Of a stretch of 64,000 nt of DNA, positions 10,916 through 22,460 are shown piece by piece. The position numbers and the translations under genes were made by a program. The stretch's first letter is position 1. Every line of letters begins with the position of its first letter. Location: the NCBI GenBank assembly GCA_027485645.1, contig JAIXQR010000001.1:489632-553631 (forward strand), read 5' to 3'. The stretch is from a bacterium. Its GTDB lineage: Bacteria > Armatimonadota > Fimbriimonadia > Fimbriimonadales > Fimbriimonadaceae. The notes below the pieces were generated by a model that was not told where the DNA came from, searched no databases, and saw only the letters and a list, made by a program, of their open reading frames with translations.

Positions 10916-13900
10916 ATGCTGCTAGCCCTCCTTGCGTCCGTCGTTTTGCAAGCGCCCGAAATCGCTTGGCTTGAGGGTGAGAAACCCCTGGCAACCAACA
11001 TGCCCATCGTTTCAGGCGCTTCTGCCAACAAAGAACGGCTGTCGGGCGAATCTTGGCTGCAAATTCTTGTTGAAGCCAACCAAGTCCAGAAAATCATGCC
11101 GCTTGGTGGGGCGATGGTTAGCTACGACTTTCCAATCTCAAAGGCGGGCGAGCGTCAGGTTTGGGCCCGCATCGGTTACGAGTTTGCCCGTGCCCCGTTT
11201 GAGTGGCGCATCGATTCCGGCCCATGGACGAAGGTTTCTCCGAACGATGTGACGACGGATGCGGTGCCGCTGACCGATTGGAACGAGGTCGCATGGCTAA
11301 AGCTCACCACCGCCGACCTTTTGATGGGGACGCACAAAATTGATTTTCGTATCCCCCGAAATCTAAACGCTAACGGCGAACCGCAGCGGACGCTGTTTGC
11401 CCTCGATGCCGTTGTGGTGGCGCAGAAATTTGAGCCGTTCGGCAAGTTTCAGCCGGGGCAAGATTGGAAGACAGACCGTGATCGTCAGGCCGCGCAGAAC
11501 GTTTTTCAGCTGCCTTCCGCTGGTTCTCCGCGACCGTCGGTGAAACTGGAAGGGGATTGGGAGATTGCCCGACACGACGAAGTGGCTCCGCCTTTTGACA
11601 TCGCGGTTCCGATTCCCGACCTTCCGACCGCCCCAAAGTGGACGGCCATTCCGGTGCCATCGGACCGAAACGTCTCTCGGCCGGACCTCACGCTGGCGCA
11701 CCGCATTTGGTACCGAACCCAGGTCAACGTTCCCGCTGATTTAGCCGGGCGTGGATTCCAACTGAAGTTCGGCCAGAACAACCTCAATACAACCGTTCTG
11801 GTCAACCGGACCTTCTGCGGATTCGAAAAGAACCCGCACGTCGCTTTCAATATCGACGTTTCGCGGGCGATCAAGCCGGGCAGGAACGAGATCCTCGTTG
11901 GCATTCGCGATCCGTGGTACGGCTTCTCGACGAACCCAAAGGACCCGATGAAGCTACGGCGGATGTTCACCTTGCCGGTCTCGTTTACGAAGAACGGCTT
12001 TTTGGATTTGGCCTATCCAGTCTGGGGAGCGTTCCAGTCAGGGATCCTAAACGCGCCGATACTTGAGGCCACCGGGCCCATTTACGCGAATGACGTCTTC
12101 GTCCAGCCGAGTGTCGAGAAGAAGTCGATCTCGTTAGATGTCAACGTCGTCAACCCCACCGGGCGCCCGCAAGCCGTGACGCTGGAGGCATCGGTGATCG
12201 ATGCCAAGACGGGCGAAGTGGCTAAGACTTTCGCAAACACCACTGGGACCACGGAAGGAGCAGATACCAAATACACGTTGACCACGAGTTGGGAGAACCC
12301 GAAGCTGTGGTGGCCCGACGAGCCGAATCTCTATCGAGTCCGCTTAAAGGTCACGGCTACTGGCGGGGTGGACACATCCGAAACCACCTTTGGTTTCCGT
12401 GAATGGAAAGCGAAAGGAAACCAGTTCACCCTCAATGGCATTCCGTGGAACGGGTGGGCCGAGCTTGTTGATGGCCGGACCAAGGAAGAGTTTCTTTCGA
12501 ACTACCGCGCGCGTGGCCAGCGGTTCTTCCGGATGATGGGGACAACGCAGAACGGCGGCACGCGATGGCAGGGCATGCCGTTTTCCGAAGCGCTGGACTG
12601 GTGCGATGCCAACGGGCTCGTCGTGCGCCGAAGCGGAATTCTGGACGGAGAAGCGATCGGATACATGGCGGTCGAGAACGATCCGGACCTGCGAGGCACT
12701 TACAACTCCAGGATCAAAATGCAGTTGATCAAAAACTGGCGGGACCAGATGGTCGCCCAGGTGAAGGCCGAGCGGAACCACCCGAGCATCCATCTTTGGT
12801 CGATCGAAAACGAGTTTCTGTACATCAACTGCATCAACTTGTATGGCGATTTGATGGACGAGTTCGAACGAGAAGTGGGCAAAGTCGGCGAGGCCGTTGC
12901 CCAGATCGATCCGACTCGTACCTGGATGGTAGATGGCGGCGGAGCTGCGAAGGACAACTCCTATCCGGTTCACGGCGACCACTACGTTTACAACAACGAA
13001 CCGAACGACTATCCGGCCTTGGCGTACGGAGACAACCCGGACGGCGGTGGGCGTGGCCGGTGGAAGTACGACAACTTGCGTCCGCGCTATGCGGGCGAGG
13101 ATTTCTTTGCCACCGGAATCAACCCGGCGGATTACGCCTGGATCAGTGGCGAGGAAGCCTTCGGCGGCAAAACGTCCGCTCATCGGGGAATTGCGCTCGT
13201 TCAGCGCATGCTCACCGAGGGGTACCGATGGTCCGGCAAAATGGCCTATCAGCACCTCTGGCTCGGCGATGAAGGGGCGAAGTTTGGAAAGCACATTTCG
13301 AACTACGAACGCGCCGCCTTCGTGCGAGAGTACGACTCGACCTTTGCTTCCGGAAGCAAGTTGCGGCGCACGATCGGGGTGTTTAACGATTCAAGGCAAG
13401 TTGAACCATTGACGCTAAAAGTAGCGCTGGTCAAGTCCGGCAAGGCTGCCGTCGAGACCTCGATTCCGGTTTCGGTACCGCCGGGCTCGAAGTCGGTAGT
13501 TCCCGCGGAGTTGCAGCTTCCGAAGGTGCAGGCACGCTGGGACGGGGAGCTCTTGATCACTCTCTCCGGAAAGACCGGAGTGGTGTTCACCGACAAAAAG
13601 CGAGCTTCGATCTTGCCAGAACCGAGTGCGGCGAGTTTGTCCCAAGCACGCGGATTAGTGGTCGTGGATCCCAAGAAAGCGGTTGCGACTTACCTTCGGT
13701 CGATCGGGGTTCCGTTCTCCGAAGTGGCATCCGTGGCCGCAATTCCCGAGAACGCGCGATGGGTGGTTGTCGGTCCAGACACGCTCGATGATGCGAGTTC
13801 TGTGCAGCCCAAGTTGGCTGCCTTAGCGGCCAGCGGCGCCCGGGTGGTTGTGTTAGAGCAAGCGACGCCGCTGCGATTCCAGGGCCTCCCGGTGCCAGTG

Positions 13901-15877
13901 AAATCTCAGAACAACCAAGGAGCCTTCAGCTTTATCGAGCGCCCGGAGCATTCGGTGCTCGCTGGCTTGGTGGACGGCGATTTTTGGGCCTGGCCAGGCG
14001 ACATTAGCTTCAAGAGCGCTTACGAAAAGCCGACGAAGGGCGCAAAGAGCTTGGTCCAATGTCACGCGAGATTGAACGCGAGTGCGCTGCTGGAGGTGCC
14101 GGTAGGTCCCGGCGTGATGTTGCTGAGCCAGCTTCAGATCGGTACCAAGCTGGCCGACACTCCGGTTGCTCGACACCTGCTGCTTAATCTCTTGAAGTAC
14201 ACCGCGAGCTACAAACTCTCCGAGCGGCCAGTCGCCCTCGTGGCAAGCAACGGCTCGCAGTTGGACTTTGTCCTCTCAGAAATCGGGATTACGCCGACCG
14301 TAGAGTCCCTGACCCAAGCCATCTCAAAACCGCAAATTGTGGTGGTCGAGGCAAGTCCAGACAACCTGAAAACCCTTGTTGATCAACGCGCGGCGATGGA
14401 TAAGTTCTTCGCCGCTGGCGGTGACTTGGTCCTCAACGGCCTGGAAGAAGACGGGCTAGCGATCTACAACAAACTCGTTGGCGTAGATCACGTGATTCGG
14501 CCGTTCCGGCGAGAGCGCACGGCGCTGCTTGCGCCGAAACATCCGCTCACCGCAGGCCTAAGTCAGGGTGACGCAGTGATGATGTCCAACCAGCGGCTCT
14601 TCGAGTGGACTCAGGACATGTTCATTGCCGACGACATCTTTACGGCAGTGGTGGACACGGTTGACGTTGCCCCGTTCGCGAAGCTGCCGAATGACTACCT
14701 TTACAACACCGTCAACGGCATGGTCAGTTCGGACGGCTGGAAGTACATCTTCTCGTTCGATTTGAATAACCAAAAGCCGGAGTACGAAATGGAGTTTCCG
14801 AAGCCGTACACCTTCCGGGAAATGGAGTGGATTGGCAACGGCTTTTACCACCTGGTCACGAAGCTCGAACTCGAGTTTGACGGCAAGGAGAAGCTGGTCT
14901 TTAACGTCAAGCCAAACACAGAGCCACAGCTTCTTGACCTTGCGGGCAAGTCGGGCAAGAAGGTGACGCTTCGAATTTTGGACTGGGAGCGCGTGCCGTC
15001 GAGTGGACAAAACGTGGTTGGCATCGACAACATTCGGATGAAAGTTGACCGGACTCCCGAGTGGAGCGGGGTTCAACCGCTGATGAATGTTGGCGGCATG
15101 GTGCGTTACCCGCGCGGCAAGGGCGGAATCACGCTGCTGAACTTTAACTTCCAAGCGCGCGAGGCCGTACCGGAAAACGCGGGCAAGAAGCGCCGGCTGT
15201 TTGCGGGTGTGCTTCGCAATTTGGACGCGAAGTTTGGTGGCAGCAATCTCCTCGTTGCCGGGGCGAGTACAAACCAGTACCAGTCGGTGGATCTGAGCAA
15301 GGTCGCAAACCAGTACCGAAACGACCGTGGATGGTTTGGCGATAAGAACCACACGATGAAGGACCTGCCGTTTGGCGCGCAGACCTTTGCAAATGTCCCG
15401 TTTGATGTCTTTGAATTCAAAACTTCGCCCGCACCGAACTGCGTGATGTTAGGAGGCAGCGACGTACCCGGGAACCTGGCCGAAAAGGTCGAGATTCCGG
15501 TGAATCAACTCGCATCTGGGCTCTTCTTCTTGCACACGGCACGTTTGGATCAAAGACGAACGGAGCCGGAGCTTGTAGAAGGGAAGGCGTTCGAATTCGC
15601 GGCGTACGTGGTCACTTACACGGATGGTTCAACTGTGCGAGTTCCTTTGCGGGGACAGCTAGAGGTGGATGACTTCCGTACAGAAACGCCAAAGGCGTTA
15701 CCCGGAGCCGTTGTTGGCTGGACCGGCAAGGACAGCACTTCGGGTCAGCCGAGCACGGCCTACATGATGACTTGGACGAACCCTAAGCCAAGCGTCGCGA
15801 TTCGAAGTGTGACTCTAACCTACGGGCCAGATCGTGTCGGAGTACCGGTACTGTTGGCGCTGACGCTAGCCAGATAG
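10916..15877 (+). CDS. Very large secreted GH2-family glycoside hydrolase
   Basis: The 1653-residue protein has a signal peptide (MLLALLASVVLQAP). After an N-terminal beta-rich module come a GH2 sugar-binding domain from about residue 210, an Ig-like domain (about 370-500) ending in FGFREWKAKGN, and a TIM barrel from about 505. The acid/base region is WSIENE at 628-633, with Glu633 the likely proton donor. SGEEAFGG near residue 742 is a candidate nucleophile region. Beyond about residue 900 lie two Rossmann/amidotransferase-like beta-galactosidase accessory regions and C-terminal beta-sandwiches. GH2 enzymes include beta-galactosidases, glucuronidases and mannosidases; the substrate is not determined. 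It is about 600 residues longer than typical LacZ. Confidence 0.85.
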   Translation: MLLALLASVVLQAPEIAWLEGEKPLATNMPIVSGASANKERLSGESWLQILVEANQVQKIMPLGGAMVSYDFPISKAGERQVWARIGYEFARAPFEWRIDSGPWTKVSPNDVTTDAVPLTDWNEVAWLKLTTADLLMGTHKIDFRIPRNLNANGEPQRTLFALDAVVVAQKFEPFGKFQPGQDWKTDRDRQAAQNVFQLPSAGSPRPSVKLEGDWEIARHDEVAPPFDIAVPIPDLPTAPKWTAIPVPSDRNVSRPDLTLAHRIWYRTQVNVPADLAGRGFQLKFGQNNLNTTVLVNRTFCGFEKNPHVAFNIDVSRAIKPGRNEILVGIRDPWYGFSTNPKDPMKLRRMFTLPVSFTKNGFLDLAYPVWGAFQSGILNAPILEATGPIYANDVFVQPSVEKKSISLDVNVVNPTGRPQAVTLEASVIDAKTGEVAKTFANTTGTTEGADTKYTLTTSWENPKLWWPDEPNLYRVRLKVTATGGVDTSETTFGFREWKAKGNQFTLNGIPWNGWAELVDGRTKEEFLSNYRARGQRFFRMMGTTQNGGTRWQGMPFSEALDWCDANGLVVRRSGILDGEAIGYMAVENDPDLRGTYNSRIKMQLIKNWRDQMVAQVKAERNHPSIHLWSIENEFLYINCINLYGDLMDEFEREVGKVGEAVAQIDPTRTWMVDGGGAAKDNSYPVHGDHYVYNNEPNDYPALAYGDNPDGGGRGRWKYDNLRPRYAGEDFFATGINPADYAWISGEEAFGGKTSAHRGIALVQRMLTEGYRWSGKMAYQHLWLGDEGAKFGKHISNYERAAFVREYDSTFASGSKLRRTIGVFNDSRQVEPLTLKVALVKSGKAAVETSIPVSVPPGSKSVVPAELQLPKVQARWDGELLITLSGKTGVVFTDKKRASILPEPSAASLSQARGLVVVDPKKAVATYLRSIGVPFSEVASVAAIPENARWVVVGPDTLDDASSVQPKLAALAASGARVVVLEQATPLRFQGLPVPVKSQNNQGAFSFIERPEHSVLAGLVDGDFWAWPGDISFKSAYEKPTKGAKSLVQCHARLNASALLEVPVGPGVMLLSQLQIGTKLADTPVARHLLLNLLKYTASYKLSERPVALVASNGSQLDFVLSEIGITPTVESLTQAISKPQIVVVEASPDNLKTLVDQRAAMDKFFAAGGDLVLNGLEEDGLAIYNKLVGVDHVIRPFRRERTALLAPKHPLTAGLSQGDAVMMSNQRLFEWTQDMFIADDIFTAVVDTVDVAPFAKLPNDYLYNTVNGMVSSDGWKYIFSFDLNNQKPEYEMEFPKPYTFREMEWIGNGFYHLVTKLELEFDGKEKLVFNVKPNTEPQLLDLAGKSGKKVTLRILDWERVPSSGQNVVGIDNIRMKVDRTPEWSGVQPLMNVGGMVRYPRGKGGITLLNFNFQAREAVPENAGKKRRLFAGVLRNLDAKFGGSNLLVAGASTNQYQSVDLSKVANQYRNDRGWFGDKNHTMKDLPFGAQTFANVPFDVFEFKTSPAPNCVMLGGSDVPGNLAEKVEIPVNQLASGLFFLHTARLDQRRTEPELVEGKAFEFAAYVVTYTDGSTVRVPLRGQLEVDDFRTETPKALPGAVVGWTGKDSTSGQPSTAYMMTWTNPKPSVAIRSVTLTYGPDRVGVPVLLALTLAR

Positions 15878-15879
15878 CG

Positions 15880-16458
15880 TTAGATCGTCTTCTTGGGGCT
15901 GTTTCGAAGTCGCACGTCGGTCGTCTGCGTGCTCGTCAAACCATCTCGGGTGATGGTGGCGGTAATACGGACACCGGCGATTTCTTTGAGCGCGGCGCCT
16001 GTAACGCTATTGCTCCAAGTTGTCGGGCTCGAAGTCGAATTGTAAGTCGCTCCCGTAATCGTGTAGTACTTGAACACGAGCGAGCTGACGTTAGGAATCG
16101 TCAAGCTTGCGGTTGTGCTCGAGCCTTCCAGACGTTGGAATTCCGTTCCGGTGAGCTTGAAGGTTCGAAGCGTTCCGCTTGATGCCACGTAAACCGCCAT
16201 CGAATTCGCGGCGGCCGAGTGAACAGCAGCATCCGTCGTGCAGCCAGTAGTGGCGGTGCAAAGGACAGCGTCCTTCACATCGTCCGCAACAAGCGTTACG
16301 AGGCGTAGGGCATCTTCCTGGACCGGGGGAAGGTTGGTTGCCGTCTTCTGAGCCGCACCTAGGCTGAGAAAGCCTTGGAAAGCGACCGAAGACAAGATCG
16401 CGAGGATCGCGACGGTGACCAGAAGCTCAATGAGGGAAAGGCCGCGAAGCTTGTTCAT
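15880..16458 (-). CDS. Minor prepilin, PilW/GspJ-like (cassette 1, gene 3)
   Basis: The protein begins MNKLRG, then LSLIELLVTVAIL: a type IV prepilin leader with the cleavage Gly and Glu at +5 of the mature protein, followed by a hydrophobic helix. The remaining 160 residues are Thr/Ser-rich with a CTATTGCTT cysteine pair. The protein is clearly paralogous to the gene at 18451-19032 (shared QRLEGS and LRNSP motifs). It overlaps the preceding prepilin gene by 1 nt and ends directly against the GH2 gene. It is probably a minor pilin of a type IV pilus or type II secretion pseudopilus. Confidence 0.85.
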   Translation of the reverse strand: MNKLRGLSLIELLVTVAILAILSSVAFQGFLSLGAAQKTATNLPPVQEDALRLVTLVADDVKDAVLCTATTGCTTDAAVHSAAANSMAVYVASSGTLRTFKLTGTEFQRLEGSSTTASLTIPNVSSLVFKYYTITGATYNSTSSPTTWSNSVTGAALKEIAGVRITATITRDGLTSTQTTDVRLRNSPKKTI

Positions 16459-16922
16459 CAGAGGCCATCCTTTGCCAGCACAGTTCCCATGACAAGAACG
16501 ACCGTATTGTTGGTAGGGTCCTTGACGGTTGTTGTGATCGTTCGCTTCGAGAAGCCGTTTAGGGTGTAGGTCGTACCAGAGACGGTGATCGGTGCATCTA
16601 CGATCTTGCGCTGCAAGCTGAGGTACGCACCGGTCGAGTTGCCTTGGGCAACGCCATTTTTGTCGAAGTACTCAACCGCGCCGTTGAAAGTGGCGCTTTG
16701 GGAGTCTCCCGCGATCGTGCCGAGCGGAAGGTTAGCGAAACCAACAATCTTCGCTCGTTCCACATCTGCTCGTGCGATTTGGGAAGCGACGGAGGTTTTG
16801 TATTGGGCTACGGAAAGTTTCATTCCGTAGACCCAAGCATTGGCTCCAACAACGAGAACCATGACAACGATGAGGCTGGAAATCAGCAGCTCAATCAACG
16901 ATACGCCGCGCTGTCGATTCAT
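16458..16922 (-). CDS. Minor prepilin, PilV/GspI-like (cassette 1, gene 2)
   Basis: The 154-residue protein starts MNRQRG followed by VSLIELLISSLIVVM, a class III prepilin signal with Glu at +5. The mature part is a single small globular domain with GTTYTLNGFSKRTITTTV, closely matched by GTTYTLNSLSKRTVTATV in the paralogue at 19022-19483. It lies 18 nt after the large anchor-A-type gene and overlaps the next prepilin. Its place between a large pilin and a second small prepilin recalls GspK-GspI-GspJ tip complexes. Confidence 0.85.
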   Translation of the reverse strand: MNRQRGVSLIELLISSLIVVMVLVVGANAWVYGMKLSVAQYKTSVASQIARADVERAKIVGFANLPLGTIAGDSQSATFNGAVEYFDKNGVAQGNSTGAYLSLQRKIVDAPITVSGTTYTLNGFSKRTITTTVKDPTNNTVVLVMGTVLAKDGL

Positions 16923-16940
16923 TTTGTGATCCTCGAGCGA

Positions 16941-18242
16941 TTACGAAGCGTTGTAGCTGCCAGCGAAGCCGACCGTTCCCGAAGCATTTGCGCCTGGGGT
17001 TGATGATCCGCCCGCAAGCGAACCTTCAAACTTGAAGCCCGTGAAGTGCAGTTCAGGTGCACCGTAGTTCTTCCAGTTGTTGACGATCATGTTGCCCTGG
17101 ATGTTGTTGTACTGGTTGACTCGAGCGTGTACGGCGAGCATCATGCCGGTGAAGGCACGGTTCTTAACCGTGATCGTGTCGGTACAAACGAAGTTCCAGC
17201 AAAGGCGGTTCTTGAACGGTGCGTTTACCGTCCATCCCCAGTCAACCGTTGGGCCGATGACGTTTACGACGACCGTGTCGTCCTTGGTCATGTTGTTGAA
17301 GTTGATCGTCTTCAGCGCCTTAACGTCGGTCGCGTTGACCCAGAAAACTCGAAGATTGCCGTTTAGCGTGTTTGCGCTGACGTCAACGTTGATGTTGTTC
17401 GGGTCGGAGACGTTGATGCGAAGGTCTGGGGTGGTTTCCAGGGTTTCGCTTCGGCTGGTCCAAAGCGACTGCTGCGCACCGATCCACGTGCCATCCATCG
17501 TTTTATAAACGGTGCCGCTTCCGAGCATTTGCAGCGTGTTCGTGATGCTTCCCGAGACGTAGGCATCATAGCCGTTAAAGACCTTCTTCACGTTTCCGGA
17601 CTTGGTTAGGTCTCCGCACATCCAAAGGCCGATGTTGCCGATAGTGTTGACCTTGCCAGGCGTGGTGTGCTGGTTGATTTCGTACGGACCCTGCCAGGTT
17701 CCGCAGACCGCGACTGGTCCTTCGCTGTGTCCGCCCTGGGTGGTCGCCGAGTTGAAAACGAGAGCGTTGAAGTCGCTACCGCTGGTTCCGGTTGGCGTGC
17801 CGGCGGCGATCTTAACTTCCATGGAAGCCTTTCGAACGGCTCCGCCAACAACGGCGGTGGAGTTCAAGTAAACGGGACCGGTTCCGGTCCATGGGGTGGT
17901 GCCGTATGGGGTGGTCGAAGCGTAAACCCAGAAGTCGCCGTTAGCGCCAGCAACCGTTCCTTTTCGTCCAGCATATGGCTGTCCACTGAGCTTGGTTGGA
18001 GTTGTAACCCAAGTGGATGCCGTTCCGGTTCCGGTCTTCGTTGCAATCAGGGCAAGCTCGTCGTTCAAACCAGCTTCTGCAACTAGCAGAGCGGCCTCCG
18101 AGTTTGCGCGGGACACGCTCAGGCTGTAGTGCGATCCTGCCGTAGTGAGCGAGCCCACCACGAGAGCGGAGCCGACGGCCGACATGATGAGAACTGCCGG
18201 AAGTACGGAACCCTTCTGATTAAAATTTAGCCCAACCTTCAT
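16941..18242 (-). CDS. GspK/PilX-like large pilin with choice-of-anchor-A domain (cassette 1, gene 1)
   Basis: The protein has a prepilin-like N-terminus (NQKG, then SVLPAVLIMSAVGSALVVG) lacking Glu at +5, as in GspK tip pseudopilins. A conserved stalk follows (SRANSEAALLVAEAGLNDEL). From about residue 160 a domain of about 270 residues matches the choice-of-anchor-A pattern: SDFNALVFNS, EGPVAVCGTW, VVNVIGPTVDWGW, LCWNFVCTDTITVKN, GMMLAVHARVNQYNNIQGNM and LHFTGFKFEG. ATG 18242 is chosen over ATG 18284 because the leader would otherwise be long and non-hydrophobic, and AAAGGG lies upstream. It is inferred to sit at the pilus or pseudopilus tip and bind a surface or substrate. Confidence 0.75.
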   Translation of the reverse strand: MKVGLNFNQKGSVLPAVLIMSAVGSALVVGSLTTAGSHYSLSVSRANSEAALLVAEAGLNDELALIATKTGTGTASTWVTTPTKLSGQPYAGRKGTVAGANGDFWVYASTTPYGTTPWTGTGPVYLNSTAVVGGAVRKASMEVKIAAGTPTGTSGSDFNALVFNSATTQGGHSEGPVAVCGTWQGPYEINQHTTPGKVNTIGNIGLWMCGDLTKSGNVKKVFNGYDAYVSGSITNTLQMLGSGTVYKTMDGTWIGAQQSLWTSRSETLETTPDLRINVSDPNNINVDVSANTLNGNLRVFWVNATDVKALKTINFNNMTKDDTVVVNVIGPTVDWGWTVNAPFKNRLCWNFVCTDTITVKNRAFTGMMLAVHARVNQYNNIQGNMIVNNWKNYGAPELHFTGFKFEGSLAGGSSTPGANASGTVGFAGSYNAS

Positions 18243-18401
18243 GAATATCTTCACATCCCTTTCGGGAATAGGTGAAGTATCCACCGGCGACAGCCAATAA
18301 TGACCCTTCGCGCTGACCTGTTATTGTGTGACACGCGAAAAGTTCAATCGCATCTAAACGGCGATTGGACGGAACTCAGGTTCAGTTTGTTCCGGAAAAC
18401 T

Positions 18402-18433
18402 GGTCAGCGCTTCAATTAGGGTAAGCGCTGACC
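18402..18433 (-). terminator. Intrinsic terminator after pilin cassette 2
   Basis: A perfect 11-bp inverted repeat (18402-18412 with 18423-18433, 10-nt loop) is followed on the minus strand by AGTTTTCC. It separates the second cassette from the first, which implies that each has its own transcript. Confidence 0.65.
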
Positions 18434-18450
18434 GCTTGGCAAGGGATGCC

Positions 18451-19032
18451 TTACGGAATGTAAGGACTGTTTCGGAGCCGGAAGTCCGTGGTGTAGGTTC
18501 CGGCGATACCGTTTCGCGACATCTCTACCGTCACACGAATCACGGTGATGTTTTTGACCGAGGTTCCGGTCACCGTGGTTGCCCAGTTTGTCGGCATGGA
18601 GGTCGCATTATAAGTGCCGCCGTCGATCGTTAAGTACCTGAAGGTTAGGCTGGTAACGTCCGACATCGAGTACGAAGGGGTGGTGTTACTGCCCTCTAAG
18701 CGCTGGAACGTGCCGTTCGTAAGCTTGAAGGTTCTCGTTGTACCGGTTGAGTTCACGTAGAACGTGATGGACGACGCATTGGCCGATTCGATCACGGAGT
18801 TCGTGGTGCAGCCCGAGGTTGCAGTGCAAGCCGGGGCTTCTTTCAGATCGTCGCTAATCATCGTGACGATGCCAACGCAGTCTTCTTGAATCGGAGGTAA
18901 TCCGGTCGTCGTCTTTTGCGCCTTCGAGATGCTGGTGAATCCTTGTAGCCCCATGCCAACGGCAAGGATCAGGATCGCGGCGGTCGCCAGCATTTCAATT
19001 TGGGAAAATCCACGTCGCACGTTAAACACCAT
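18451..19032 (-). CDS. Minor prepilin, PilW/GspJ-like (cassette 2, gene 3)
   Basis: From ATG 19032 the protein begins MVFNVRRG then FSQIEMLATAAILIL, a prepilin signal with Glu at +5. It is a paralogue of 15880-16458, with the same paired cysteines (ACTATSGCTT), QRLEGSNTT and a C-terminal DFRLRNSP. The frame extends to 19062, but that would put a charged Cys/Arg stretch before the leader. The chosen start overlaps the end of the preceding prepilin gene by 11 nt, as in a translationally coupled unit. It is the last gene of cassette 2, followed by a terminator hairpin. Confidence 0.83.
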   Translation of the reverse strand: MVFNVRRGFSQIEMLATAAILILAVGMGLQGFTSISKAQKTTTGLPPIQEDCVGIVTMISDDLKEAPACTATSGCTTNSVIESANASSITFYVNSTGTTRTFKLTNGTFQRLEGSNTTPSYSMSDVTSLTFRYLTIDGGTYNATSMPTNWATTVTGTSVKNITVIRVTVEMSRNGIAGTYTTDFRLRNSPYIP

Positions 19033-19483
19033 CCTTCGCGAGCACGGTGGCCATCGTGACAACGACTTTGCTCGGCGAGAGCGTTCGCACGGTTGCGGTG
19101 ACGGTGCGCTTCGAAAGCGAGTTCAAGGTGTACGTCGTGCCGCTGACCGTAATGCCGGTGTCGGTGACGGTTCTTTGAACCGAGAAGATCGCACCGGTGG
19201 AGTTTGCCAACGGCGCTCCAACGGAATTGAAGTACTCCAGGGAACCAGTGTGGGTGGCGGTGGTGCCGGAAACCGTGCCTAACGGCAGGTTTGCCCAGCC
19301 CAAGACCTTTGCCCGCTCAATATCGGCTCGAGCGAGTTGGGATCCGACCGACGTTTGGTGCTGCTGAACCGAAATGGTCATGCAGTATCCCCAGGCGTTT
19401 GCTCCCACGATAAGGGTGAGAGACGCGATGACGGTGGAAGCTAAAAGTTCAACTAAGGTGAGGCCGCGTAGCTTATTGCGCAT
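19022..19483 (-). CDS. Minor prepilin, PilV/GspI-like (cassette 2, gene 2)
   Basis: The protein starts MRNKLRG then LTLVELLASTVIASL, a prepilin leader with Glu at +5. The mature domain is homologous to the 16458-16922 product (VERAK/IERAK and GFANLPLGT/GWANLPLGT motifs). The ORF runs upstream to 19582, but ATG 19483 is the only start that places the leader at the N-terminus, and the extra codons lie inside the preceding gene. It overlaps that gene by 11 nt and the next by 11 nt. It is probably co-assembled with its two cassette partners. Confidence 0.85.
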   Translation of the reverse strand: MRNKLRGLTLVELLASTVIASLTLIVGANAWGYCMTISVQQHQTSVGSQLARADIERAKVLGWANLPLGTVSGTTATHTGSLEYFNSVGAPLANSTGAIFSVQRTVTDTGITVSGTTYTLNSLSKRTVTATVRTLSPSKVVVTMATVLAKDGV

Positions 19484-20747
19484 CGTAGTTACCTTTGTAG
19501 CCAATCGAGGTTGAGAACGTGGATTGGGCTGCGAACGCACCGGCGTACTTGAAGTTGGTGAAGTGCATTTCTGGAGCACCATAGTTGGACCAGCGCTTCG
19601 CGATCATCGTTCCCTGAATATTGTTGTACTGCTGAACGTGAGCTTTCGGAGCCAGCATCATCCCGGTGAGGTGTCGGTTTGCAACCTTGATGTTGGAGAC
19701 GTTTTGGAAGTTCCAAAGAATCCGGTTCTTGTACGGAGCGTTAACCTGCCAGCCCCAATCCACGTTAGATCCTTCGACGTTGATAATGACCGAGTCGCTT
19801 GCGGTCATGTTCTGAATGTCCAACGTCTTGAGCGGGGCGAGGTCTTTGTCATCGACCCAATACACCTTTACGTTTCCGTTCAAAGTGTTTTTGGTCACGT
19901 CCATGCGGATGTTGTTCATGTCCGAACAATCGAGTCGCATGTCGTTCATGGCACCGATCGTATCGGACTGGGTCTGCCACTTGGCTTCTTCGGTCGTAAA
20001 CCAGTTTGTGGAGGTCGTGTTGTAGATCGTCCCATTACCAAGCATGGTTAGGATGCAGTTGATCTGCCCGCCAATGTATGCGTTGAATCCGTTGAAGACC
20101 TTCTTAACCGCATTTCCTCGGGTGATCTGTCCACCGTTGTAAAGGCCTACCTTCGTGTCGGTGCCAATCTTGGCCGATGCCGAGTGCTGGTTGATTTCGT
20201 AGGGGCCGTTCCAGTTTCCGCCGACGGCGACCGGTCCTTCACTGTGGCCGCCCTTTGTATCGACGTTTCCAAAAACGATGGCGTTGAAGTCGCTTCCGGT
20301 CGTCGTCGGGTTGGACCCGGCGGTCTGGGTCACTTTGACTTGCAGACTTGCCTTCCGAATGGCGCCGCCAACTTTGGCGACGGAAACGAGATACAAGGGG
20401 CCGGTGCCAGTCCAAGCAGTTTTGGTCGTTGGGCTCGTCGTACCGTAGACCCAGTAGTTGCCGGTGACACCTGCGACCGAGCCCTTTCGTCCTTCGTACG
20501 GTTCGGCAGTCTGCTTAGAAGGAGTCGTGACCCAGGTTGACGCATCGGTTGCGCTGGTTTTCGACGCAATATTAATGAGCTCTTCGTTCAATCCGGCTTC
20601 CGCCAAGAGTAGAGCGGCTTCGCTGTTAGATCTTGAGACCGCCAGATTGAAGTTTGAGCCAGAAACCATGAGGGATCCGACAATAAGGGTTGCGCCAACG
20701 GCAGAGAGCACAACTACAGCAATGAGGGCGGAGCCTTTGATATTCAT
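19473..20747 (-). CDS. GspK/PilX-like large pilin with choice-of-anchor-A domain (cassette 2, gene 1)
   Basis: The 424-residue paralogue of 16941-18242 starts MNIKG then SALIAVVVLSAVGATLIVG, again without Glu at +5. The stalk SRSNSEAALLLAEAGLNEEL is nearly identical to that of cassette 1. The C-terminal domain shows SDFNAIVFGN, EGPVAVGGNWNG, VIINVEGSNVDWGW, ILWNFQNVSNIKV, GMMLAPKAHVQQYNNIQG and MHFTNFKYAG, the choice-of-anchor-A pattern. The family is usually found at surfaces of bacteria with diverse anchors; here the anchor is a pilin helix. It is the first gene of its cassette, with about 200 bp of upstream non-coding DNA. Confidence 0.77.
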   Translation of the reverse strand: MNIKGSALIAVVVLSAVGATLIVGSLMVSGSNFNLAVSRSNSEAALLLAEAGLNEELINIASKTSATDASTWVTTPSKQTAEPYEGRKGSVAGVTGNYWVYGTTSPTTKTAWTGTGPLYLVSVAKVGGAIRKASLQVKVTQTAGSNPTTTGSDFNAIVFGNVDTKGGHSEGPVAVGGNWNGPYEINQHSASAKIGTDTKVGLYNGGQITRGNAVKKVFNGFNAYIGGQINCILTMLGNGTIYNTTSTNWFTTEEAKWQTQSDTIGAMNDMRLDCSDMNNIRMDVTKNTLNGNVKVYWVDDKDLAPLKTLDIQNMTASDSVIINVEGSNVDWGWQVNAPYKNRILWNFQNVSNIKVANRHLTGMMLAPKAHVQQYNNIQGTMIAKRWSNYGAPEMHFTNFKYAGAFAAQSTFSTSIGYKGNYDAQ

Positions 20748-20951: not shown

Positions 20952-22460
20952 TTACTTAGCTGGGACTAGCCGAACGACTTTATCCGGCTGGTTGAGGGCA
21001 ACGTACACGAAGCCGTCTGGTCCGACAGCAACTTCTCGGATGCGGCCCATGCCGTGAATCAGTTCTTCTCGCTCAACGAGGTTGTCCCCATTCACTCGGA
21101 TTCGATCCAGGTTCTGGCCTGCAAGTCCGCCCGCGATGAGGTCACCGTTCCACTGTGGGAACGCCTTTCCGCGTCCGTAGTCCAGGCCGCTTGCGCCGAT
21201 GCTCGGCAGCCATCGGAAGACTGGAAGGGTGATCTTCTGTTCTGGTGCTGGCCAAGGAGTTTGGAACGGCGAGTCGTTGTAGTTGATGCTAAACGCAACC
21301 ACGGGCCAGCCGTAGTTCGCGCCTTTCTGGATTCGGTTGACTTCGTCTCCACCGCGTGGGCCGTGCTCCGTGTCCCAAAGGTTGCCCTTGGCGTCCATGA
21401 CCAAGCCTTGCTGATTTCGGTGGCCGAGGGTCCAGATTCCGGGAATGGAATCGGCGACGCCTACGAACGGGTTGTCCGTTGGAATCTTTCCGTCTTCCTT
21501 GACGCGGTAGATCTTTCCGTATGGGTTCGTCAGCTCCTGGGCGAGCATGTTGCCGCCGCGCTCGCCGACGGCAAAGAAGATGTTGCCCTTGCCATCAAAA
21601 ACGATTCGGCTACCAAAGTGCGCGCCAGAGCCGTTGTAGAACTTTTGCGGAGCTTCCCAAATCGTTTCCTCGCTGCCCCAAGTGGCTTTATCACCTGAGA
21701 ATTTGACTTTTCCGCGGACGATCTTGGTCATTCCACTGCGGTTCCCGTCCTTTGCCGGGTCGGTGAAGGACAGGTAAACCCAGCCGTTCTTCGCGTACTG
21801 AGGATGGACGGCGACTTCCATCATTCCGCCCTGGCCGAGCTCTAGACTCTTTGGCAAACCGTCGATCGTGCCGATGACCTTCCCGTCTTTGGCAACGGTG
21901 ATGCTTCCGGGTCGGTTCGTGATCATCATGTGGCCGTCAGGAAGCCAGTCGATTCCCCATGGAGTTTGCAGGCCGTTGCCCTGATCGATCACCGTCTCGA
22001 CTTTGTACTTGTGATACTTCGAGGTGTACACGCCGTCGGTGGCCTTTGGCGACCCGTTCATCTGGCGCAAGCCGCGGCCCTGAAGCTCTCGAATGTGGAC
22101 GACTAATGCCCAGCACTCTTTGTCCGAAAGCGTCTCGCCGTACGCGTCCATTCCCGCGCTGGCAACGCCGTTCTTGATGGCGTCATAGAACGGCTTGTCC
22201 CACTTCTGGTCAAACTTTTCGGCCTTGAGGAGCGAAGGCGTGCCGCCACCGCCGCCTTCGGCATTCTCGCCGTGGCATTTGGCGCAGGTGTCGTTGTACA
22301 ACCGCGTGACGTTAACCGCTCGCTGACCCTGTTCGGTCCGTGCAGCGGATGGCGTGTTCGCGTTAGTTTTGGCATTCGGAGCAGAATCTGCGCCGAGCAT
22401 ACAGGCCCAGGTTACGGTGCCTCCAGCGATGAGAGCAAGGGGAGCAAGCAGCTTTGCCAC
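20952..22460 (-). CDS. Cytochrome c-fused PQQ-type sugar (glucose/sorbosone) dehydrogenase
   Basis: The 502-residue exported protein has a hydrophobic N-terminus. A cytochrome c domain (about 45-130) follows with haem motif CAKCHG and a downstream Met, then a six-bladed GSDH-type propeller from about 155 (GLQTPWGIDWLPDG, GAHFGSRIVFDGKG, TLGHRNQQGLVMD, DTEHGPRGGDEVN). Such enzymes oxidise aldose sugars in the periplasm and pass electrons through haem. The fused haem domain makes a separate first acceptor unnecessary. It starts with GTG, supported by a TAAATT hexamer 6 nt before. A second cytochrome c lipoprotein is encoded 44 nt upstream on the same strand. Confidence 0.87.
   Translation of the reverse strand: MAKLLAPLALIAGGTVTWACMLGADSAPNAKTNANTPSAARTEQGQRAVNVTRLYNDTCAKCHGENAEGGGGGTPSLLKAEKFDQKWDKPFYDAIKNGVASAGMDAYGETLSDKECWALVVHIRELQGRGLRQMNGSPKATDGVYTSKYHKYKVETVIDQGNGLQTPWGIDWLPDGHMMITNRPGSITVAKDGKVIGTIDGLPKSLELGQGGMMEVAVHPQYAKNGWVYLSFTDPAKDGNRSGMTKIVRGKVKFSGDKATWGSEETIWEAPQKFYNGSGAHFGSRIVFDGKGNIFFAVGERGGNMLAQELTNPYGKIYRVKEDGKIPTDNPFVGVADSIPGIWTLGHRNQQGLVMDAKGNLWDTEHGPRGGDEVNRIQKGANYGWPVVAFSINYNDSPFQTPWPAPEQKITLPVFRWLPSIGASGLDYGRGKAFPQWNGDLIAGGLAGQNLDRIRVNGDNLVEREELIHGMGRIREVAVGPDGFVYVALNQPDKVVRLVPAK

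Follow-up and report, generated by a model that had tools for sequence, protein, structure and literature searches.

Tandem minor-pilin cassettes of a Fimbriimonadaceae bacterium as candidate pilus tips carrying a choice-of-anchor-A domain

Introduction

Minor pilins of the I, J and K kind start and cap filaments (PMC9934059), and in Streptococcus sanguinis modular pilins serve as tip adhesins (PMC8179133, PMC9934059). The closest described architecture to the one considered here is that of ComZ from Thermus thermophilus (PDB 6qvi; PMC6561018), a GspK-like pilin with Gly at +5 and PilA2 as its GspI-like partner, whose solenoid has FfIBP as nearest relative and lies between the penultimate and last strands. 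The present work concerns positions 15880-20747 of a 64,000-nucleotide stretch of bacterial DNA, hereafter the window, where two tandem three-gene cassettes each encode one large prepilin bearing a choice-of-anchor-A (CAA) domain and two small prepilins. From cassette conservation, domain identity, predicted architecture and discordant trees, all computed here, we infer with a rough probability of 60% that the cassettes encode two alternative minor-pilin tips of the GspIJK/ComZ kind, displaying an exchanged CAA domain that would bind a surface ligand.

Each of the related systems shares part of this organization. ComZ likewise has a GspK-like module without Glu+5, an ice-binding-fold solenoid before the last pilin strand and a gene that adjoins small prepilins, one of them GspI-like; however, its solenoid spans ~380 residues and binds DNA, its sequence does not significantly match the large proteins described here, and the present cassettes are ordered large, small, small, bear a CAA domain as solenoid and are duplicated. 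The GspK-GspI-GspJ pseudopilus tip also combines one large subunit with two small prepilins, but the insert of GspK is alpha-helical and located elsewhere in the sheet (PMC6561018), while here it is a beta-solenoid. PilB and PilC of S. sanguinis similarly carry a binding domain on a minor pilin, within a proposed complex of three minor pilins at the tip, although their von Willebrand factor A or lectin domains are C-terminal to the pilin module and PilC retains Glu5 (PMC8179133, PMC9934059). Finally, CAA proteins (TIGR04215/PF20597), including the Jonah lectins (PMC6541295), contain the same domain, but those of the phylum are nearly all secreted with a PEP-CTERM motif, whereas the carrier here is a prepilin. 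Going by titles and abstracts, the PF20597 papers found do not have pili among their subjects.

Gene organization and domain identity

The six genes lie on the minus strand as intact open reading frames, cassette A at 20747-18451 and cassette B at 18242-15880, in a genome of 3.19 Mb and 7 contigs (G000). The features are as follows.

19473-20747, minus strand: copy A large prepilin (X/K-type), 424 residues, no Glu+5; leader MNIKG, followed by SALIAVV
20328-20747, minus strand: pilin module of the copy A large protein, residues 1-140, with helix 26-61 and strands 87-139 in the AlphaFold model; a module also detected in other cassettes with profile A2
19536-20300, minus strand: copy A CAA domain, residues 150-404, a beta-solenoid of ice-binding-protein fold; TIGR04215 E 3.5e-34, PF20597 E 4.8e-41, ice-binding proteins at Z ~16.5
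19476-19505, minus strand: strand at the C terminus of copy A, residues 415-424, proposed to complete the pilin sheet as its last strand; model strand 415-423, with ComZ and PilA4 alignments extending to residue 424
19022-19483, minus strand: copy A small prepilin 1 (PilV/GspI-like position), Glu+5; 11-nt overlap with the large gene
18451-19020, minus strand: copy A small prepilin 2 (PilW/GspJ-like position), Glu+5, GTG start
18402-18433, minus strand: 11-bp hairpin between the cassettes, then a short T run, terminator-like; z -4.2, with no such hairpin in the homologous locus of a second species (L049)
16941-18242, minus strand: copy B large prepilin (X/K-type), 433 residues from ATG, no Glu+5, Pro+4; leader ending in NQKG, followed by SVLPAVL
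17031-17774, minus strand: copy B CAA domain; TIGR04215 E 1.4e-29, PF20597 E 1.7e-33
16458-16922, minus strand: copy B small prepilin 1 (PilV/GspI-like position), Glu+5; N_methyl over cut-off
15880-16458, minus strand: copy B small prepilin 2 (PilW/GspJ-like position), Glu+5, sharing 1 nt with small prepilin 1; N_methyl E 8.9e-7

The identity of the domain on the large prepilins is clear at the profile level. Whole-protein scores of the two large proteins are 103.6 and 118.7 bits with TIGR04215 (curated cut-off 29 bits; profile positions 2-254 of 255) and 117 and 141.8 bits with PF20597, the ice-binding-like adhesive domain (cut-off 23.8 bits), which bears out the CAA assignment of the original prediction. 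The CAA profile also matches antifreeze protein 3vn3 at the sequence level (E 3.8e-5). A third TIGR04215 match in G000, at C3:248354-249094, lies in a protein that starts like a signal peptide and carries a PEP-CTERM motif, and the genome encodes an exosortase; the expectation that the family occurs with several anchors holds within one genome, where the same domain is found on prepilins in the cassettes and on a PEP-CTERM anchor in the paralogue.

By inspection, the leaders of the prepilins end in Gly, and Glu5 is found in four of four small prepilins and in neither large protein, so that the two copies have the gene order originally described, a large pilin lacking Glu+5 and then two small ones having it. 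Both large proteins display, again by inspection, the class III leader and hydrophobic helix without Glu+5 that characterize the GspK/PilX type. In profile scans, N_methyl (PF07963) exceeds its cut-off in both copy B small prepilins, stays below it in copy A small prepilin 1, and has no match in copy A small prepilin 2 or in either large protein. The anticipated likeness of the N-termini to PilX profiles was not borne out, since PilX_N (PF14341) matches neither large protein up to E 1; a homologous X protein from another genome (L141) matches it at E 9.3e-5, below the curated cut-off. The large proteins are assigned to the GspK/PilX type by position, leader and fold, and are not filed as PF14341 members. 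The modular-pilin survey of PMC8179133 selected on IPR012902, a signature of the N-terminal motif, which the large proteins probably lack, as they have no PF07963 match. Modular pilins of the X/K type can be missed when a survey takes the Glu5 motif as its starting point.

Gene junctions and the inter-cassette signal agree in part with the first description. Of the 1-nt and 11-nt overlaps, the 11-nt one is found between the large and first small genes of copy A and the 1-nt one between the small genes of copy B, but the other two junctions are gaps, of 1 nt between the small genes of copy A and 18 nt between the large and first small genes of copy B. The terminator between the copies corresponds in G000 to a strong hairpin with a short U tract at 18433-18402 (z -4.2), while no comparable hairpin was found at the same place in the second species. 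Scanning for sigma-70-like promoters and terminators gave no excess relative to shuffled sequences, and an Rfam search of the region yielded chance-level matches only.

Predicted structure of the large prepilin

The AlphaFold model of the copy A large protein (36 sequences, mean predicted local distance difference test (pLDDT) 80.2, predicted template-modelling score 0.63) starts with helix 26-61 and pilin strands 87-139, which a weak linker (141-150) joins to a beta-solenoid up to ~404; a second weak stretch precedes strand 415-423. When the whole model is searched against the PDB with Foldseek, the best match is the GspK-like tip pilin ComZ (6qvi, E 7.3e-7), in agreement with the GspK/ComZ kind proposed for this subunit. 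Structural comparison aligns ice-binding proteins over residues 150-404 (Z 14.8-16.6), ComZ over residues 32-424 (Z 14.9, at 10.6 Å root-mean-square deviation), and the pilin PilA4, weakly, over 25-424 (Z 4.5). Since the ComZ and PilA4 alignments reach residue 424, the C-terminal strand is suggested to be part of the pilin portion, and the model suggests that the CAA solenoid sits between the pilin helix and sheet on one side and the last C-terminal strand on the other, as in ComZ. The domain originally placed on a pilin helix is thus indeed borne by a prepilin, but in the model it is inserted between the pilin sheet and its closing strand. The ComZ-type plan, a GspK-like module with an ice-binding-fold solenoid between the penultimate and last strands, is found here in prediction.

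A model of an X protein bearing another domain, from genome G084, shows the same plan (ice-binding protein Z 16.0 and ComZ Z 15.8, over the solenoid). Taken with gene order, these predictions carry the ComZ architecture beyond Thermus, where it was described, into many genomes of a second phylum. Sequence searches do not reach that far: phmmer of a large protein against the PDB up to E 1 gives no hit, ComZ included; profile A7, built from X proteins of sister cassettes, does not find ComZ; and the small-prepilin profiles have no meaningful matches in the PDB.

Conservation between two species

The second species of the genus (G082) holds both cassettes in the same order and between the same neighbours, with orthologues 86-94% identical at the protein level, while copies A and B are 53-61% identical to each other in all three proteins. 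This difference indicates that the whole cassette was duplicated before the two species split. In a close-relative scan of 84,980 species genomes, which detects close relatives only, one locus appeared (L048); outside the phylum the search covered close matches only.

Between both species, nonsynonymous divergence (dN) does not exceed 0.09 in any of the six genes and synonymous divergence (dS) ranges from 0.6 to >2, the higher values being near saturation; all six genes are under purifying selection. For the large protein of copy A, dN/dS is 0.013 in the CAA part and 0.032 in the pilin part, and for that of copy B 0.052 and 0.049, respectively, all rough estimates as some dS values are near saturation. 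These ratios bear on the notion that the three proteins merely prime pilus assembly, the CAA domain being a passive steric cap without ligand. Minor pilins of the IJK kind do initiate assembly (PMC9934059), and X homologues carry very different solenoids in the same gene position, both of which would fit such a role; nonetheless, constraint on the CAA part that, on these rough figures, equals or exceeds that on the pilin part in copy A and resembles it in copy B, together with the retention of two diverged copies, makes it very unlikely.

Synonymous divergence relative to L049 is itself uneven among neighbouring genes, with dS of 0.6 in the copy B large gene and ~2.2 in that of copy A. Codon bias or recombination could be the cause.

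Related cassettes in the phylum and proposed exchange of the displayed domain

With profiles of the pilin module (X), small prepilin 1 (V) and small prepilin 2 (W), uninterrupted X-V-W cassettes are recovered from at least 13 further genomes of the phylum; in some genomes (G056, G055 and G070), two or three X genes follow one another. The original proposal to count such cassettes in related genomes is thereby answered as to the framework, but the usual display domain is of another family, and CAA is found in the cassettes of G000 and G082 only. X proteins of the other cassettes bear a different C-terminal region, in which Pfam DUF7305 is over cut-off in one of the ten scanned and below it in another one, and TIGR04215 does not find the X proteins of the sister cassettes. 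Matches to TIGR04215 occur in 45 of 291 genomes of the phylum; among the loci read, almost every full-length protein begins with a signal-peptide-like segment and ends in a PEP-CTERM-like one. Divergent or partial cases are few and include the very long G008 protein and the weak matches of family f22, and a CAA domain over cut-off on a prepilin is seen only in G000 and G082. A search of plasmids retrieved one CAA protein, from Halotia, without the N-terminal part.

Trees of the framework and of the domain disagree. In the framework tree (pilin module, V and W), the CAA cassettes fall inside the cassette clade of their family (100/99). In the CAA tree, the pilin-borne domains form one clade within a half (99/99) that is otherwise made up of secreted proteins, and their closest neighbour is the secreted CAA of G000 and G082 (92/89, a branch that is not starred); both trees are unrooted, and the CAA sample comes from one phylum. 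Domain exchange within an already existing cassette would produce this kind of disagreement, and the two trees together suggest that CAA replaced a resident domain within the pilin fold.

The opposite possibility is that no swap took place, the displayed domain being an old resident solenoid that diverged to a CAA-like sequence. CAA and DUF7305-like solenoids do share the ice-binding fold, their C-terminal parts align weakly (hhalign P 0.037), and TIGR04215 has weak matches among the X proteins of family f22, at least one of them with an X-like prepilin start. On the contrary, the pilin-borne CAAs are 42-43% identical to the secreted CAA protein of G000 itself and nest among secreted CAAs, and the failure of TIGR04215 to find the sister X proteins points in the same direction, so that divergence in place appears quite improbable. 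Sequence homology between secreted CAAs and DUF7305-like X proteins is not claimed (hhalign probability 1.4%, P 0.037).

Returning to exchange, we lean slightly towards the view that X-V-W cassettes of this phylum provide the pilus tip with a slot for exchange, in which the framework is kept and the solenoid before the last pilin strand may be replaced by a domain of another protein family. In this case the incoming domain has exosortase-anchored close kin, which would amount to a move from the cell surface to the tip. The two species would then offer a testable case of a pilus changing its tip, with one framework, a different domain and two versions side by side, and with that domain also present on a second kind of anchor within one genome.

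Proposed tip complex and its function

In the proposed mechanism, each cassette would encode a minor-pilin tip complex of the GspIJK/ComZ kind. Its large X subunit, without Glu+5, would run from the pilin helix and sheet through the ice-binding-fold beta-solenoid to a C-terminal strand that closes the sheet. Helix contacts would join X to the small prepilins, one V/I-like and one W/J-like, which would initiate filament assembly and leave the solenoid free at the tip of the pilus. In both species of the pair, a CAA domain that elsewhere is secreted and PEP-CTERM-anchored would have taken the place of the X solenoid, and duplication of the whole cassette before the species split would have given rise to a pair of alternative tips. 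For the domain on display, binding of a surface ligand, which may be a polysaccharide, is the most likely role. Consistent with the positions originally given to the small subunits, these occupy PilV/GspI-like and PilW/GspJ-like places, and two diverged copies are kept in two species.

The cassettes most likely serve as two alternative type IV pilus tips, each showing a domain that would bind a ligand, perhaps a glycan. In Acanthamoeba, a CAA-domain lectin of the Jonah group binds cellulose and, less well, chitin (PMC6541295). Pilin-borne CAAs contain 8-9 Trp and 11-14 Lys, in comparison with 0-7 Trp and mostly 0-9 Lys in secreted CAAs, an enrichment that fits a binding surface for glycan or DNA. 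The following points weigh against the proposal: (i) the cassettes are orphans, flanked by a GH2-type (glycoside hydrolase family 2) glycosidase and a sugar dehydrogenase, (ii) ComZ, the nearest architecture, binds DNA and not glycans, (iii) evidence on CAA ligands comes from one protist protein family, (iv) structure predictions cover single chains, three-way assembly being putative, (v) the pilin module of the copy A model is built on four close sequences, with pLDDT <50 at residues 1-30, 141-150 and 407-419, and (vi) insertion of the solenoid is read from secondary structure and alignment ranges of the model.

DNA uptake ranks second, after a surface-binding pilus tip. The solenoid-bearing X would bind extracellular DNA for natural transformation, as the DNA-binding competence pilin ComZ does, and both the Lys richness of the pilin-borne CAAs and a ComEC-type gene in G000 would suit it. 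However, ComEC is very common, Trp is enriched as well as Lys, the CAA domain also occurs on secreted, surface-anchored proteins unlinked to pili, and sequence alignment with ComZ, which would place its DNA-binding lysines, is not significant. This function is therefore considered unlikely.

The remaining machinery of G000 bears on a third option, that the cassettes furnish the type II secretion system with alternative I-J-K tips for its pseudopilus, with CAA recognizing secreted substrates. The genome has one prepilin peptidase (by PF01478 search), several assembly ATPases and a type II secretion locus (L043), and X, V and W do correspond to K, I and J positions. Nevertheless, that locus contains its own I-, J- and K-like genes, which renders a pseudopilus role for the cassettes less likely; its gene order is I-J-K and not K-I-J, it lies on another contig, and the ComZ-type solenoid is known from a pilus. 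We accordingly grant little probability to this option. As to the favoured type IV pilus tips, one type IV pilus locus of G000 (L044, C4:95516-99045) has ~7 tandem short prepilin genes, five with an identical N-terminal score, and no V, W or X genes in the stretch read. A second type IV pilus locus has very large V-, W- and X-like genes: at L181 553-3735 and L042 12358-16556, a V-W-X-like run stands beside pilB, pilT and pilC, its products of 654, 745 and 1060 residues having almost no Pfam matches.

Neighbouring genes and other observations

The cassettes adjoin a convergent gene at window positions 10916-15877 (plus strand) for a 1653-residue GH2-type glycosidase-like protein, and just upstream of them, at 20952-22460 (minus strand), lies a gene for a glucose/sorbosone dehydrogenase with a cytochrome c domain. 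Both are kept in G082; the window's flanking genes are not found near cassettes of other genomes. In genome G008, a reading frame of 3936 residues (L061 3907-15714) contains CAA matches in its N-terminal part. Four X proteins (L141, L142, L143 and L145, from G090, G095, G093 and G092, respectively) have 25-37 Cys in a displayed domain of ~400 residues and 1-2 in the pilin part, in comparison with 0-6 Cys in the displayed domain of other X proteins, the Cys-rich solenoid being an unusual form of one lineage.

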